NCBI GenBank assembly: GCA_026391695.1
Contig: JAPLDP010000037.1
Coordinates: 62,001 to 126,000 of the forward strand
Reading direction: 5' to 3'
DNA from: Bacteroidota bacterium
GTDB lineage: Bacteria > Bacteroidota > Bacteroidia > Bacteroidales > JAGONC01
Length of the DNA stretch: 64,000 nt
This document shows positions 51,862 through 57,507 of the stretch, piece after piece (positions within the stretch are counted from its first letter, which is position 1; the number at the start of each line of letters is the position of its first letter). Under the pieces are notes generated by a model, which saw only the letters and a list, made by a program, of their open reading frames with translations, was not told the DNA's origin and did no database searches. Both the position numbers and the translations under genes were made by a program.

Positions 51862-53010
51862 ATGAATTATAAACAGGCAAAAAACATAAAGGGACTTGCC
51901 AGCCTGATAGGCAACACACCTTTATTGGCAATAGAATTCAAATATAAAGGGGAAGACCGTATTATTTATGCAAAGGCTGAGAATCATAACATGACCGGAA
52001 GCATAAAAGACCGGATGGCATTTTATATTTTACAGCAGGCCTATAATAAAGGTTTGTTGCAACCGGGTGACCGCATTATCGAAGCCACCAGCGGTAACAC
52101 AGGGATATCTTTCAGTGCCATTGGCCGGGCTCTTGGCCATCCTGTGACCATATTCATGCCAGATTGGATGAGTAAGGAACGGATAAACCTCATTCGCAGT
52201 TTCGGTGCACAGATTAACCTGGTAAGTAAAGCAGAAGGAGGTTTTCTGGGCAGCATAAGCCGTGCAGAAGAATTGGCAGTATCTGAAGGCCATGCTTTTC
52301 TGCCTCAGCAGTTTTCGAATGCAGATAATATTAAAGCTCATTACATGACGACCGGGCCGGAAATCTGGTGGCAGATAAGGTACCGCAACATCATCCCTGA
52401 TGCCTTTATCGCAGGTGTCGGAACAGGTGGAACTATTATGGGTGCAGGACGATACCTGAAAGAAATGAATCCTCAAATCAAGTTACATCCGCTTGAGCCT
52501 GCAAGCTCCCCAACACTATCAACAGGTCACAAGGTTGGAAAGCACCGTATTCAGGGAATATCCGATGAATTTATTCCCGCTATTGTCAACCTGAAAGAAC
52601 TGGATGAGGTCGTGGCAGTCGACGATGGAGATAGTATCATCATGGCACAAAAGTTAGCGGTTATGGGACTTGGTGTCGGCATTTCATCCGGAGCCAATTT
52701 CATAGGAGCATTAAAAATACAGAATGAGTTAGGGAAAAATGCCGTCGTAGTGACCGTATTTGCTGACGATAATAAAAAGTACCTAAGCACAGACCTCTTC
52801 ATGGATGAACCCATCAAAGACAATTTGCTTTCACCACATGTTCAACTCCTGGGGTTCAGATCATTCAAAAGGATCTGTTATACATGTTGTGATCCAATCG
52901 ACTGCATTGAAGCCAATTTTCCGGATCCCGAATTCAAATATCCCCTTCCCTATTGTCCGAGAAGAGCATCGTCAAATGAAGAAGTAAAGAAATCAGAAAG
53001 GATGGATTAG
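51862..53010 (+). CDS. cysteine synthase family protein with Cys-rich C-terminal tail
   Basis: 382 residues. Fold-type II PLP enzyme of the O-acetylserine sulfhydrylase family: PLP-lysine motif [10 protein letters not shown], phosphate/substrate loop [10 protein letters not shown], glycine loop [11 protein letters not shown]. It probably makes cysteine from O-acetylserine and sulfide; cystathionine beta-synthase-like or related activities cannot be excluded. After the catalytic domain comes a ~50-residue tail with cysteines C339, C342, C343, C348 and C365 ([10 protein letters not shown] and PYCPRR), which is not part of classical CysK and could bind metal. No cysE is adjacent. The next 53 bases lead into the border repeat of the accessory island. 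Confidence 0.85.
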
Positions 53011-53062: not shown

Positions 53063-53078
53063 TGAACCGGGAGGGAGT
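53063..53078. repeat. direct-repeat copy of the tRNA-Arg 3' end (putative att site, left border)
   Basis: TGAACCGGGAGGGAGT matches 15 of 16 bases of the tRNA-Arg 3' end at 57434-57449 (TGAACCTGGAGGGAGT) in the same orientation. A 16-mer with one mismatch is not expected by chance in ~4 kb. It fits attL/attR of an element that integrated at the tRNA 3' end. No integrase lies between the copies. Confidence 0.6.
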
Positions 53079-53193
53079 ACTCTCCTATTCACCAATATAT
53101 TATTATTCAATTTATTATGATTTATTGTTAATCCAATCCGTGAAGTTTTCGTGAAGTGGTTGCTTTTGTCTTTTTTCTCCGTTAAAATCTGAA

Positions 53194-53201
53194 TATCTTT
53201 G
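53194..53201 (+). promoter_or_regulatory. -7 promoter box of the three-TM protein gene
   Basis: TATCTTTG, exact TAnnTTTG match followed by TG, 23 bases before the ATG at 53224. A TTTG at 53165-53168 is 25 bases upstream, longer than the usual spacing. Confidence 0.5.
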
Positions 53202-53223
53202 TGTTAATTTTATAACATAATAC

Positions 53224-53760
53224 ATGGAATTATCACCTTATCTTCAAAAAAATTGGTCAAAAATTGAGATTGATCATTTAAAATTCATCCTTGAACAGGC
53301 TGAAAAAACACTCAATGCAACTGTGGAAACAGCAAATGGTCATTCAAAAAAATCGGCCTGGATATTCGGACTTTTTTTAAGTATATTAATTGTTGTATTG
53401 GGATCATGGATTACTGGCGAAGTATCTGGTGAATATATGATATCCGGTATTCCATTCATCTGTAATGTAATCCTGATTTTATATTTTTCATTCCGTGCTC
53501 AAAAAATGTATTCAATCAATATACCGGGAACGAGAGCTGAAGGATTATTGACTGATGAATTCTTTGAACCATTTGAAGACCCTGCATTAGCCTATAAAAA
53601 TATGATTCTATCAAAATGTATTGATTATGATGAATCAATTGTTGAAAACAGAATCATTAACAATCGACGCTTACAACGATTAGAGAAAGCAAGTAAGATG
53701 ATTCTCATCATTCCTTGTTCAGTGCTTTTGAGCTTTCTCTTGTATCTACTCCTTTATTAG
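53224..53760 (+). CDS. membrane protein of unknown function (three TM segments)
   Basis: 178 residues. An amphipathic N-terminal helix (IEIDHLKFILEQAEKTL) is followed by two membrane helices (WIFGLFLSILIVVLGSWI ~46-63, and IPFICNVILILYFSF ~77-91). A soluble loop of ~60 residues with acidic stretches follows, and a C-terminal membrane helix (MILIIPCSVLLSFLLYLLLY ~159-178). The layout of helix, paired TMs and short cytoplasmic parts recalls small membrane effectors of immunity loci, but I recognise no family and claim none. It is the only plus-strand gene of the island and overlaps a small minus-strand ORF at its 3' end by 53 bases. Confidence 0.6.
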   Translation: MELSPYLQKNWSKIEIDHLKFILEQAEKTLNATVETANGHSKKSAWIFGLFLSILIVVLGSWITGEVSGEYMISGIPFICNVILILYFSFRAQKMYSINIPGTRAEGLLTDEFFEPFEDPALAYKNMILSKCIDYDESIVENRIINNRRLQRLEKASKMILIIPCSVLLSFLLYLLLY

Positions 53761-53851
53761 CACCAGCTCCCGACCTGTCTTCTTTTTCCTTACGCGGAAG
53801 ATGAACTGGTTTTGGAATTGGTTTTGATGGCTGAGTTTTTTTAATGGCCAT
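53708..53851 (-). CDS. small basic Pro/Lys-rich protein (47 residues)
   Basis: ATG at 53851, TGA at 53708-53710. The protein begins MAIKKTQPSKPIPKPVHLPR and continues with charged residues. It starts 12 bases after the stop of the TPR/zinc-ribbon gene on the same strand, which fits an operon, and its 3' half is antisense to the end of the three-TM gene. The composition is low-complexity, so it could be non-coding; the position and clean start make it plausible. Confidence 0.35.
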   Translation of the reverse strand: MAIKKTQPSKPIPKPVHLPRKEKEDRSGAGANKGVDTRESSKALNKE

Positions 53852-53863
53852 ATTTCATCTGGA

Positions 53864-54586
53864 TTAAGGTTTTAAGTCTTTAATAAGATATTTCTCCATC
53901 AATTTTATACCGCTTTCTAAACCACATTCGGTGAAGGGATTACTTTCAAACGCCTTAGTATAATATTCGATAGCTGGTTCCTGATGTTTTTTAATGGCTT
54001 CGGCTTGTTTTGCTGAACTGGACCATGAACTCATTTGGAGTGGTATCATTTCATAACATCTGGCAATCAGGAATAATGTTATCTGTTGTTTACTAATCTC
54101 TAAGGATAATTTTAAACTTTCAATCGCTTCATTAAATCGATTCAATAAATAATAAATAAATCCTTTTTGATAATAAGATTTAGCCTTAAGTATTTTATTA
54201 GTGAAAGTCATTTCTTTTTCAGGAATTGTTATTTGGATAGTACCGGAAAATGCATTAGATAGGTTAAGGAGCTCAAGGCATTGATTATATGATATATCGA
54301 AGCTTGCTTTTATTGAGTTTATTATACTTTCATATTGCGCCAGTTGTTGTGTTCCTGATGATGGTTTTAACTTTTTCGCATCTTCAATTTCATTTTTTAT
54401 CACTTCAAATTGTGCATAGTGATTATAAGCTGAAAGCAGATACCAATACCCTTGCCTATCATTGACTGATAGGTTGGGATAGTTAAGGCTTAGGTCATTC
54501 GGATTTAATGGTTTTAGATTACCACATTGTTTACAAGTCTTAACCCTCTCATCATTTTCAAAAAAACATGAACAGATCCATTCCAT
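53864..54586 (-). CDS. zinc-ribbon plus TPR-like protein of unknown function
   Basis: 240 residues. The N-terminus has a zinc-ribbon/RanBP2-like motif: W-x-C-x-C then C-x2-C (MEWICSCFFENDERVKTCKQCG). From ~55 on it is alpha-helical with TPR-like units (YQKGFIYYLLNRFNEAIESLKLSLEI, shown in part, ~140-165). Cytosolic, no TM. Such proteins often act as adaptors. The next gene (secreted 134-residue protein) starts 25 bases upstream on the same strand. AT-rich, within the tRNA-bordered island. Confidence 0.6.
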   Translation of the reverse strand: MEWICSCFFENDERVKTCKQCGNLKPLNPNDLSLNYPNLSVNDRQGYWYLLSAYNHYAQFEVIKNEIEDAKKLKPSSGTQQLAQYESIINSIKASFDISYNQCLELLNLSNAFSGTIQITIPEKEMTFTNKILKAKSYYQKGFIYYLLNRFNEAIESLKLSLEISKQQITLFLIARCYEMIPLQMSSWSSSAKQAEAIKKHQEPAIEYYTKAFESNPFTECGLESGIKLMEKYLIKDLKP

Positions 54587-54610
54587 AATTGATAATATTA
54601 AAAGAATAAA

Positions 54611-55015
54611 TTATTTAAGCATTTCCTTTTGCGTTGCTGCATCGAAGTCGATGAATGGCTTTTTTAATAAGAAATGATATACATAAACGTTTGACTCACC
54701 AATTAGATAGGCTTGTACAAATTCCCATCCATCTTTTCCCATAAAATTTAAAGCATCAATCATTGAATTAAAGACAACCGGGTTTCCGGTTACCGGATCC
54801 TTGAGTTTTCGATTTTCAAAAAATTTTGTTTTTTGTCCAAAATCAATTTCTATTGTAACTTTATTGCTTAACATCTTGCTTTGACCGACTATTTCACAAT
54901 ATAGATATTTAGGAGGATTTTTTATGGTATTTGTATCAATCTGAATTGGTTCCTGGCTAAATAACTTACTAATTCCCCAAACCAGGAATATAGATAAGAT
55001 TAGAATTCTTTTCAT
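54611..55015 (-). CDS. small secreted protein of unknown function
   Basis: 134 residues. Signal peptide MKRILILSIFLVWGISKLFSQ. The body contains YCEIVGQSKML, VTIEIDFGQ and, near the C-terminus, MIDALNFMGKDGWEFVQAYL, a pattern recurrent in small Bacteroidota exported proteins and reminiscent of DUF4177-like folds. Function unknown. Two bases after the stop of the nuclease gene, so very likely co-transcribed with it. Confidence 0.6.
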   Translation of the reverse strand: MKRILILSIFLVWGISKLFSQEPIQIDTNTIKNPPKYLYCEIVGQSKMLSNKVTIEIDFGQKTKFFENRKLKDPVTGNPVVFNSMIDALNFMGKDGWEFVQAYLIGESNVYVYHFLLKKPFIDFDAATQKEMLK

Positions 55016-55017
55016 AA

Positions 55018-56082
55018 TCAGTCTTTTATAAAGGTTTTTGCGATGGTAATCAATTGATCAGAATATTTATAAATATCATCAAGTGATGTCATTTCTGATT
55101 TGACTTCTTTTTTATTCTCATCGATGAATGCAATCTGTTTACTATTTTTGGTCAGATAAAGGCGGCAAACCGTATTCCTGATGGAGTTATCGATTAATAT
55201 ACTAAAAAATCTCTGAAAATCGCGATAGAATATCCGACTTGGATCTATACTTTGCCGGAGTATTGACTTAATGATGTAATAACCTTCAATCTCTTCCTCT
55301 GTTGTTTCAATGAGATTTTCTTTCGGTTGTTCAATTATTAATTTTTCCTCTTCCTGTTTGCCAGATTCTTTTTCTTTTATAAGTGCTGTTTTTAAGCGTT
55401 CGGTAATAATATCACTGATAAATTGTTGACATGAATTTTTAGTGATCTCGGTAAAAAGACCAATTACCTTTGTGGTTGCCTTCCCATCATAAACCTTAGC
55501 AATCATATACCTTATAAATTGTTCGGATGGTTGCCTGAATTCATTGGTAAGTAAATTTTTTATCTCATTTGAATATTTGAGAAAGCTTGCTGTATTGACA
55601 ATATTATCAATGTTAAAATATGATTTATGGAATTTCTTCAGTTCCTCGACTTGAGAATCTTTGATTTCTAAAATATTAATATCAAGGAATGGCTTTTCAT
55701 CCATCATATTTGATTGATCTAAATCAGTATAGAAGCGGTAGATGATACCATTAGTCAGTATGGCAAATTTTGCCCTGGTTACATTAAAATACCGGAGTAA
55801 TTGGGTATTATGCACATCCAATTCATCTTTCCAATATTTACATTCGATAAGAATAATGGGGTGACCTCCACTCATAATGGCATAATCAACCTTTTCTCCT
55901 TTTTTAATTCCAATATCCGAGATAAATTCAGGTATAACTTCCTGGGGATTGAAAACATCATATCCTAATGCCTGAATAAATGGCATAATGAATGCATTTT
56001 TTGTAGCTTCTTCAGTAAAGGTAAGATCTCTGAGTTTTTCAACACGGTCGGCTAATTGTTTTAATTGGTCTTTGAAGTCCAT
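55018..56082 (-). CDS. stand-alone HsdR_N-type restriction-endonuclease-like protein
   Basis: 354 residues. The N-terminal ~150 match the type I restriction HsdR N-terminal nuclease: FIMPFIQALGYDVFNPQEVIPEF, then the PD-(D/E)XK residues D66 in KVDYAIM and E80-x-K82 in LIECKYW. The C-terminal part (~265-354) has the GYYIIKSILRQ and RLYLTKNSKQIAF patterns seen in related orphan restriction-like proteins. There is no helicase/translocase domain and no hsdM or hsdS nearby, so it is not a classical type I enzyme. It could cleave foreign DNA on its own or with an unknown partner. Located mid-island, ATG at 56082. Confidence 0.8.
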   Translation of the reverse strand: MDFKDQLKQLADRVEKLRDLTFTEEATKNAFIMPFIQALGYDVFNPQEVIPEFISDIGIKKGEKVDYAIMSGGHPIILIECKYWKDELDVHNTQLLRYFNVTRAKFAILTNGIIYRFYTDLDQSNMMDEKPFLDINILEIKDSQVEELKKFHKSYFNIDNIVNTASFLKYSNEIKNLLTNEFRQPSEQFIRYMIAKVYDGKATTKVIGLFTEITKNSCQQFISDIITERLKTALIKEKESGKQEEEKLIIEQPKENLIETTEEEIEGYYIIKSILRQSIDPSRIFYRDFQRFFSILIDNSIRNTVCRLYLTKNSKQIAFIDENKKEVKSEMTSLDDIYKYSDQLITIAKTFIKD

Positions 56083-56147
56083 GATATTATTTTTAAATGA
56101 ATAAATAGGTCATTCTAAGCACTCCTTTAGCGTGGCTCTGAAATTTG

Positions 56148-56344
56148 CTAATGGCATTTATTTAATTCCTTTTCGAGATGTTCAAATTTTTTGATTGAGC
56201 AATGATCGTACTCTTGTCTTTGATTATCTCTTTAAGTTGCTCTATTAATTGTACCCGGTCATATTTTGATTCAAATTCCTGTCAGGTTTTTTCTTCTTCC
56301 TGCGCTAAATCGGAGGTATCATCTTCAAACCAGCTTACATTGCT
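56148..56344 (-). pseudogene. decayed coding remnant (charged, helical)
   Basis: The minus strand reads SNVSWFEDDTSDLAQEEE, then an in-frame TGA after KT, then QEFESKYDRVQLIEQLKE. Near the end a frame change is needed to continue as KKFEHLEKELNKCH before a stop. The reading looks like real amphipathic protein broken by a stop and a shift. No start is seen. The rest of the 56083-56383 gap holds no feature. Call is tentative. Confidence 0.3.
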
Positions 56345-56383
56345 CAAAAGTTAGCTACAACCTTAAAAGACGACAGTAACTGC

Positions 56384-56860
56384 TTAATCGCAAATTATGA
56401 TAAAGCCATCCTTACCATTATAAATAAAATTCCAGTGGATTAAAATATCCCGCCCTATTAAGACATCAAAAGGTCCCTTAAGTGGACAGCATACAACCTG
56501 GACATCCTTTCCTTTACCCCAGTTAAATTGCAATCTGGCAAAATAAGCCGGTTGACTTTCCTCATTGTTTACTGATGTGACTTTTTGAAATCCTGTTTGA
56601 ACAAGATTAAGTTGCTGAGCAATATCTGGAGTAATTACACAGCCAAAAGCACCAGTATCAATCAATGCACGGACTTGTATTGCCGGAACTGGCTTTCCAT
56701 CTATAATGAGTTGATCGGCAACCGACTTTGGATGTGTAATTATAACTGGAATTATCGGGCCTCCATTCTGTAAAATAACATGTGGCGGTAATGGCCTAAG
56801 GACTTTTTTACCATCCTTCTCGACTTGTTGAAGTCCACCAAAATGAAAGGTATTTATCAT
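56384..56860 (-). CDS. retropepsin-like aspartic protease
   Basis: 158 residues. One catalytic aspartate in the motif ALIDTGAFGCVI (DTG at 68-70) and a downstream hydrophobic-Gly IGRDIL near 140, the hallmark of retropepsin-type clan AA proteases, which act as dimers. Single chain, no signal peptide or TM, so it is cytosolic. ATG at 56860 overlaps the stop of the DUF5678-like gene by four bases, so the two are translationally coupled. The substrate is unknown. Confidence 0.75.
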   Translation of the reverse strand: MINTFHFGGLQQVEKDGKKVLRPLPPHVILQNGGPIIPVIITHPKSVADQLIIDGKPVPAIQVRALIDTGAFGCVITPDIAQQLNLVQTGFQKVTSVNNEESQPAYFARLQFNWGKGKDVQVVCCPLKGPFDVLIGRDILIHWNFIYNGKDGFIIICD

Positions 56861-57096
56861 AATATAGCGGCTGAAATAAAGTTTACCGGATTGGTTTCGG
56901 TTACATAGTGAACAAGGAAACTACCATCAATCCCATATGCTTTAATACCTTCTTCAGCAGCCACTTCATAAGTATCAAATGACCCGACAACTTCTTGCTT
57001 ATACACAAGAATATATTTGTTTTTGTAAAGATTTAGAAGTTTTTCAAGGTTTTTATTCACAAACTCTTGGTTCTTGGTTAAGTTTTCGTTTGACAT
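56857..57096 (-). CDS. small DUF5678-like protein
   Basis: 79 residues. The core KYILVYKQEVVGSFDTYEVAAEEG with a following FLVHYVT strand (shown in part) resembles DUF5678, a short domain often encoded next to retropepsin-like proteases. Here its stop overlaps the protease start (ATGA), supporting a functional pair. ATG at 57096. The 337 bases from 57097 to 57433 hold no gene or terminator I can support beyond a 6-bp stem (CCCTTA/TAAGGG, 57370-57386). Confidence 0.65.
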   Translation of the reverse strand: MSNENLTKNQEFVNKNLEKLLNLYKNKYILVYKQEVVGSFDTYEVAAEEGIKAYGIDGSFLVHYVTETNPVNFISAAIL

Positions 57097-57433
57097 TTGA
57101 CGATTTTTTATTTTACAATTTCAAAGTACAAATATACTATAAAAAAATTGATAAACCTAACCCTCAAAAAACTCTCATAAACCATGACTGACACTGTATT
57201 TAACTGAAAATAAATGCAGCAGCCAACAGACAGGTTTCTGTAATGCAGGTGGATATCCATACCTTTTTTTGTAATCCTCTCTGATTATGATTTTTATCCG
57301 TGGCATAAAATCCCGTGACGTTTTTGTGAAGCAAAATGGCAATAAACTTTAAGAATTGTATTTCAGAATCCCTTATGTGGTAAGGGGTTGAAATGCGCGC
57401 TTTCTCAGAGCGGTGAGAGATTTGTGAGTGGAG

Positions 57434-57449
57434 TGAACCTGGAGGGAGT
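57434..57449. repeat. 3' end of tRNA-Arg, right-border copy of the island repeat
   Basis: The last 16 bases of the tRNA-Arg gene (plus-strand TGAACCTGGAGGGAGT, covering discriminator, acceptor 3' strand and part of the T arm) are the intact copy of the direct repeat at 53063-53078. Integration into a tRNA 3' end that leaves the gene complete is the usual mode of tyrosine-recombinase elements. Confidence 0.6.
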
Positions 57450-57507
57450 CGAACCCCCAACCTTCTGATCCGTAGTCAGATGCTCTATCCAATTAAGCTA
57501 CAGGTCC
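57434..57507 (-). tRNA. tRNA-Arg (anticodon ACG)
   Basis: Cloverleaf on the minus strand: acceptor GGACCTG/CAGGTTC with one G-U, D arm with AGCTTAATTGGATAGAGC, anticodon stem TCTGA/TCAGA around CTACGGA giving ACG, T arm GGGGGTTCGACTCCC. CCA is not encoded. ACG is the arginine anticodon that TadA edits to ICG. The gene borders an accessory island at its 3' end. Confidence 0.95.

Follow-up and report, generated by a model that had tools for sequence, protein, structure and literature searches.

The 64,000-nucleotide window analysed here, part of a contig from a Bacteroidota bacterium, carries a candidate integrated element at 53063-57449, beside the gene for tRNA-Arg(ACG). This gene, the putative target of integration, occupies 57433..57507 on the minus strand as called by ARAGORN (the Rfam RF00005 match spans 57434-57507). 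Its 3′ end, TGAACCTGGAGGGAGT (57434..57449, minus strand), would form one copy of an attachment (att) core. The distal core, TGAACCGGGAGGGAGT (53063..53078, minus strand), repeats it directly, 4.37 kb away and in the same orientation, matching at 15 of 16 positions (94%); in the orientation of the tRNA it is preceded by GTA where the tRNA has TTCGA. Between the two cores lies an AT-rich island of 4,354 bp (53079..57432). On both strands of the 3.63-Mb assembly to which the window belongs, the pattern TGAACCKGGAGGGAGT finds the two window cores alone at zero mismatches and three further places at two mismatches. With N replacing K and one mismatch tolerated, it returns the same two cores and none besides, and 6.0 Mb of first-order Markov DNA contains nothing within one mismatch of the core 15-mer.

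The island is an outlier in composition as well as in tetranucleotide usage. Its GC content is 0.330, against 0.401 in the rest of the window (z −5.1 over 1015 overlapping stretches of the same size), and its tetranucleotide distance is 0.285, where the maximum among 255 other stretches is 0.180. GC content at third codon positions (GC3) is 0.26-0.30 in six island genes and 0.394 ± 0.028, with a minimum of 0.342, in 28 other open reading frames (ORFs). The composition steps lie close to both core copies. A first-pass annotation of this DNA had described both the repeated tRNA 3′ end at 53063, with its one mismatch, and the AT-richness of the intervening DNA; both descriptions hold, with the nearest rival places for the core at two mismatches and with GC and codon usage in agreement.

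The island genes are patchy or orphan and have separate histories. At the left end, a 178-aa protein with three hydrophobic stretches discerned by eye (53224..53760, plus strand) matches no Pfam, PHROG or PADLOC family and was found in only one of 295 genomes, its own. A 47-aa "tiny basic protein" (53708-53851), whose frame overlaps the 3′ end of this membrane-protein gene on the opposite strand, has no match in Pfam, PADLOC, NCBIfam or PHROGs, and is doubtful as a real gene. There follow, all on the minus strand, a 240-aa TPR protein (53864..54586; Pfam TPR_1, 7.9e-8), present in nine of 393 genomes of the order, its own included and the other eight by weak matches; a 134-aa protein with a signal-peptide-like start by eye (54611..55015), below Pfam and NCBIfam cut-offs and with weak PHROG matches; and a 354-aa solo HsdR_N nuclease (55018..56082; Pfam HSDR_N, 5.1e-15; phrog_4225, 1.7e-127 over residues 1-353). 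A probable decayed ORF (56083..56383), interrupted in every frame of a six-frame translation, has no homolog in the fetched comparison loci or PHROGs. It is followed by a 158-aa retropepsin-like (clan AA) aspartic protease (56384..56860, minus strand; PF13650, 5e-8), found in 11 of 393 genomes of the order including its own, with one close homolog (66%), and by an overlapping gene for a 79-aa DUF5678 protein (56857..57096, minus strand; Pfam 1e-5). The protease directly follows a small ORF of 76-114 aa in six of the eight homologous loci read (window 56384-57096; L108-L111, L113, L114). Three of these six small ORFs match DUF5678 at E<0.01 and none is above the Pfam cut-off; the pair is likely to be a two-gene module. 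In the literature searched, DUF5678 turned up in a single paper, its title pointing to plants.

Much of the gene list in the first-pass annotation thus stands: the TPR, HSDR_N, clan-AA protease and DUF5678 assignments are above Pfam cut-offs, three hydrophobic stretches in the membrane protein and the cysteine pattern of the TPR protein are seen by eye only, and the tiny basic protein is the doubtful entry. Its statement that no integrase remains is also upheld. A tblastn search of the island gives no integrase match beyond chance, and the seven island ORFs include no integrase or relaxase family in Pfam, NCBIfam or PHROGs. PADLOC matches on the island are at chance level only, and viral contigs hold no relatives of the membrane protein or the protease.

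The HsdR_N nuclease, the best characterised of the cargo proteins, occurs in 43 of 393 genomes of the order at E≤0.001, its own included. Seventeen sequences all share residues D66, E80, K82, Q94 and Y98, which we take to be the D...ExK and QxxxY motifs of a PD-(D/E)XK nuclease. The predicted structure (predicted local distance difference test, pLDDT, 84.5; predicted template modelling score, pTM, 0.55) has as its best, weak fold match an HsdR fragment (3h1t; E 0.012, template modelling score 0.24), and no sequence relative was found among solved structures at E≤0.01. A type I restriction enzyme has an HsdR subunit with a helicase, together with HsdM and HsdS; the island protein is the HSDR_N nuclease part alone, and Pfam detects neither an M nor an S family among its neighbours on the island. 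It matches phrog_4225, annotated as an endonuclease of temperate phages, over its full length, yet the island copy has no recognisable prophage around it. Relatives include 18 phage records. The gene sits in the repressor-integrase region in four of the five phage contexts read (Acetoanaerobium, Streptococcus, Corynebacterium and Fusobacterium phages) and between portal and tail genes in a Porphyromonas phage. Three further loci lie on viral contigs, and 55 records are plasmids, the single plasmid context read being free of mobile context. Its likeliest role, judged from sequence, would be that of an anti-invader nuclease, and it is plausible that the island carries defence cargo.

The same genome encodes a second HsdR_N protein, 54% identical, in a ∼5-kb stretch of ∼28-36% GC next to tRNA-Met(CAT); the 3′ end of this tRNA is repeated at 172 and at 5217 bp downstream. 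We considered HsdR_N as the marker of one conserved island and rejected this, as 29 homologous loci, read with at most 1.5 kb of flank, lack any other island protein; the Arg, Met and Lys islands have HsdR_N as their sole gene in common. Four of 34 HsdR_N loci (32 fetched loci, the tRNA-Met locus and the window) have a tRNA-3′-end copy within reach. The gene lies between the copies only in the window and the tRNA-Met island, and beyond the copy in two other genomes, G248 and G224.

Downstream copies of tRNA 3′ ends recur elsewhere in this genome. We examined 43 of its tRNAs (Rfam lists 44), with 0.3-57 kb downstream of each and 677 kb in total, and found same-strand copies at five. At up to one mismatch in the 3′ 16-mer these are Val(TAC) +390; Arg(CCT) +7674 and +16477; Pro(GGG) +176; and Met +172 and +5217. 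Arg(ACG) +4371 differs from this 16-mer at two positions, of which one is the final base and lies past the end of the tRNA in Rfam. On the opposite strand (793 kb), no copy was found at up to one mismatch and two at two mismatches. In other genomes, four of 46 distinct tRNA genes have a downstream copy, with none upstream or on the opposite strand: Lys +2086 (G248), Pro +475 (G224), Arg +109 (G028) and Arg(TCG) +130 (G017). This is not an unbiased rate, because two of these loci were chosen for their HsdR_N content.

Nine copies with no GIY-YIG gene separating them from the tRNA or the preceding copy (the window, Met twice, Lys, G028 Arg, G017 Arg, Arg(CCT) twice and Pro(GGG)) share one register, in which identity begins in the T-loop and extends to the tRNA end. 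The core is preceded by TA in seven of the nine, the window included, and by AA in Pro(GGG) and G017, while the tRNAs have TTCGA or a variant. Crossover in tRNA T-loops is a known habit of some integrases. Terminator-like hairpins follow several copies by eye. At four places an exact copy of the tRNA 3′ 16 nt lies 109-176 bp downstream, with hairpins and no plausible gene between (L142 18090-18273, L145 1867-2071, L213 1452-1703, L154 11069-11313). We considered these short segments (G028, G017, tRNA-Pro(GGG) and tRNA-Met) as minimal elements; the tRNA-Met one partly recurs inside its island.

Two further copies belong to a different arrangement. The Val locus reads tRNA, terminator-like hairpin, GIY-YIG ORF and copy of the tRNA T-arm and 3′ end (L189 17095-17560), and the G224 Pro locus has the same layout (L166 8592-9215). 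The ORFs encode 83-87 aa (PF01541, 2.4e-17 and 1e-14), and both copies retain TTCGA together with more of the tRNA. These one-gene segments may represent a mobile cassette of GIY-YIG type located at tRNA 3′ ends. In the library searched, we found no paper on such cassettes at Bacteroidetes tRNA genes or on T-loop target sites, which is not a claim that the islands are unpublished.

A tyrosine integrase is present at another tRNA of the genome. From tRNA-Arg(CCT) to its first copy extends a 7.7-kb element that encodes an HTH_17 excisionase-like protein and an integrase of 431 aa (Arm-DNA-bind_5, Phage_int_SAM_5, Phage_integrase). The integrase gene begins 191 bp from the att copy. At E≤1e-20, 103 of 393 genomes have a homolog of this integrase. 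In two of 30 fetched loci, its own included, the gene lies directly 3′ of a tRNA (Val, Leu), and in four more a one-mismatch tRNA-3′-end copy (Gln, Asp, Leu and Asp type) lies ∼170-220 bp upstream of it; by our own arithmetic, about 0.8 such copies would be expected anywhere in the integrase loci. In a genome of the same order and another family (G026), an ORF with Arm-DNA-bind_5 and Phage_int_SAM_5 begins 82 bp 3′ of tRNA-Arg(ACG) itself. It is the N-terminal part of an integrase cut by the contig end, where the contig start (L053 1-100), presumably sequencing adapter, truncates the gene. This integrase part beside tRNA-Arg(ACG) indicates that an integrase uses the same tRNA elsewhere in the order. 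Within the genome of the window, tRNA-Leu(CAA) and tRNA-Arg(CCT) are 88.6% identical over 193 bp of 3′ end and flank, so that similar element ends are present at both tRNAs. The tRNA-Leu(CAA) flank lies at a contig end (L219 1-310), so the assembly may have truncated an element there. A second tRNA-Arg(CCT) element (L212 9439-15345) carries the IS21-like genes Mu-transpos_C_2 and IstB_IS21, with three adjacent tyrosine recombinase genes within the istB-like gene.

Just inside the cores of the window island are short direct repeats that resemble arm-type sites. The left repeat, CCGTGAAGTTTTCGTGAAG (53138..53156, plus strand), has a period of 11 and an exact 8-nt unit; the right, CCGTGACGTTTTTGTGAAG (57313..57331, plus strand), has the same period and is inexact. 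The two are alike at 17 of 19 positions. Among 3000 random pairs of AT-rich segments from the same genome, two are as good with at least seven matched G/C and five without the G/C condition. The tRNA-Arg(CCT) element has GGTGACG pairs with a period of 12 inside both ends. The pattern GTGA[AC]G-N3-8-GTGA[AC]G occurs five times in 557 kb (twice in the window island and twice in the tRNA-Arg(CCT) element, once at either end of each, and once 3′ of tRNA-Leu(CAA)), a descriptive count, since the pattern was derived from those same loci. Of 27 integrase-family genes, this genome's own included, 21 have exact repeats of period 10-13 (unit of at least 6 nt, at least three G/C) within 350 bp upstream, compared with 11% of 189 control stretches; three of the 30 loci were dropped for short upstream DNA. 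Five of 13 island ends have an exact repeat within 200 bp (control 5.7%), namely the left end of the window island, the tRNA-Leu(CAA) end and, at tRNA-Arg(CCT), the far end of the second element and both ends of the first. We suggest that the end repeats are arm-type integrase sites.

The two flanks of the island differ in conservation. On the 5′ side of the tRNA, the family relatives G001 and G004 have the hydrolase, HD-protein and amidohydrolase genes seen in the window, and G003, also of the family, has the last two of these; the contig of G002 begins inside the tRNA. On the 3′ side G001, G003 and G004 have unrelated genes, so this side is variable. The cysteine synthase gene (cysK; window 51862-53010) is absent from all of the relatives' tRNA loci read. 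In family relatives it has no match in two of four and a weak one (25-31% identity) in the other two, and its closest relative among 41 genomes, 63% identical, belongs to another family. The first-pass annotation had called both flanks core genes, which is right for the tRNA and hydrolase side and not for the cysteine synthase. A hydrolase scan of genome contigs gave seven loci at 27-46% identity.

Considered together, these data make it probable that 53063-57449 is an integrated element at tRNA-Arg(ACG) that retains its two att sites and lacks an integrase, similar to a cis-mobilizable element (CIME). The support consists of the core repeat and its register, the foreign composition, the similar end repeats, the sister islands and the presence in the genome of an integrase of a tRNA-targeting family. 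In the proposed mechanism, a tyrosine integrase would recombine the att site of the element with the T-loop and 3′ end of tRNA-Arg(ACG); the element's att copy would rebuild the tRNA 3′ end (57434-57449), and the second copy would remain at 53063 beside cysK. That integration followed the tyrosine-integrase route here, and which core copy is the older, we infer. The first-pass proposal of integration at a tRNA 3′ end, with the integrase lost or supplied elsewhere, gains support from the sister islands, the tRNA-Arg(CCT) integrase element, the G026 fragment and the end repeats.

Several points weigh against this interpretation. The core is short (15/16) and mismatched, and the distal copy lies immediately beside cysK, a gene that the family does not conserve. 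Among 41 genomes searched with the tRNA/hydrolase DNA, none of the same genus, no empty or alternatively filled site was found, and no relative examined has the left flank of the island at tRNA-Arg(ACG). No kb-scale island of this kind occurs at the tRNA-Arg genes of 27 other genomes, where the downstream DNA is often short. The island retains no integrase remnant. The end repeats were spotted by eye before testing, the right one is too inexact for the exact-repeat test, and both run in the opposite direction, relative to the tRNA, to those of the tRNA-Arg(CCT) element. Finally, eight of the 13 island ends lack an exact tandem repeat, among them the right end of the window island, one end of the second tRNA-Arg(CCT) element, Met, Pro and Lys.

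The island is most likely a decayed or cargo-only CIME-like element. Movement would need a matching integrase in trans, or an incoming element joining at an att site. A dedicated non-autonomous, satellite-like element that an integrase encoded in the same cell continues to mobilise in trans would differ in present activity alone, and we hold this to be possible at a minority chance. Both cores and the end repeats have survived in the absence of an integrase gene, a sister island at tRNA-Met likewise has no integrase, the genome contains an integrase-bearing element, and similar element ends stand at tRNA-Arg(CCT) and tRNA-Leu(CAA). On the other hand, the att core of the known tRNA-Arg(CCT) integrase is unlike the tRNA-Arg(ACG) core, the end repeats of the window island have the opposite orientation and a period of 11 rather than 12, and the core mismatch and decayed ORF suggest age. 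A broader and more tentative idea, unlikely as it stands, is a multi-tRNA system of integrase-less cargo islands in this genome and its relatives, with att sites composed of a tRNA 3′ half plus arm-type repeats, and moved in trans by the integrases of elements at other tRNAs, with a solo HsdR_N nuclease as recurrent cargo and the window island as one unit.

The repeat might instead have arisen by chance in an AT-rich variable region, with the island assembled by unrelated insertions or deletions near the tRNA. The short mismatched core would fit such an origin, as would the tRNA 3′ side of relatives, which varies without repeats, and the distal copy, parts of which also fold by eye into small hairpins near the cysK 3′ end; set against this, the repeat is unique in the assembly at up to one mismatch and missing from the Markov DNA, its register is common to the sister copies, composition steps lie near both copies, and the end repeats match each other, which leaves coincidence improbable. 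A GIY-YIG-type tRNA cassette, or another duplication of the tRNA end without an integrase, is a very remote prospect: one-gene GIY-YIG segments do lie between a tRNA and its 3′-end copy in this genome and in G224, but their copies retain TTCGA and a longer stretch where the window copy shares the register seen in the integrase-bearing element, and no island protein tested matches a GIY-YIG family in Pfam.

A single genome with several tRNA-bordered islands, with and without an integrase and in one att register, turns a suggestive repeat into a testable system. With the sister islands it can be asked directly whether genomic islands that lack an integrase are dead remnants or move in trans, and what role is played by a nuclease widespread in phages and islands.

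The element can be set beside several known systems. A phage satellite (phage-inducible chromosomal island, PICI, or phage-inducible chromosomal minimalist island, PICMI) fits poorly, as integrase, induction and packaging families are absent from the seven island ORFs in Pfam and PHROGs. Tycheposons are tRNA-bordered cargo elements (PMC10872708). The island would likewise be tRNA-bordered cargo with a tRNA 3′-end copy; it lacks a recombinase gene, one being present at another tRNA of the same genome, and its host lineage differs. Integrative mobilizable elements (IMEs) of Bacteroidetes inserted at tRNA 3′ ends include NBU1 at tRNA-Leu, NBU2 at tRNA-Ser and MTnPi4 (PMC5704250). The site type is the same, and the tRNA-Arg(CCT) element of this genome encodes a tyrosine integrase; in contrast to such autonomous elements, the island has no integrase of its own and no mobilisation gene matched in Pfam. 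The closest likeness is to CIMEs, defined as elements that have lost integration and transfer genes and kept attL and attR (PMC5704250). Unlike for a CIME, no parent integrative and conjugative element (ICE) or IME and no transfer remnant was found for the island. A CIME moves in cis once an incoming element has accreted to it, as this island might. Like a CIME, the island appears to have two att-like cores at a tRNA 3′ end, cargo and no detected integrase, and other tRNAs of the genome show tandem copies as in CIME accretion. The kind of element is already known; the value added here is that of sister islands within one genome.

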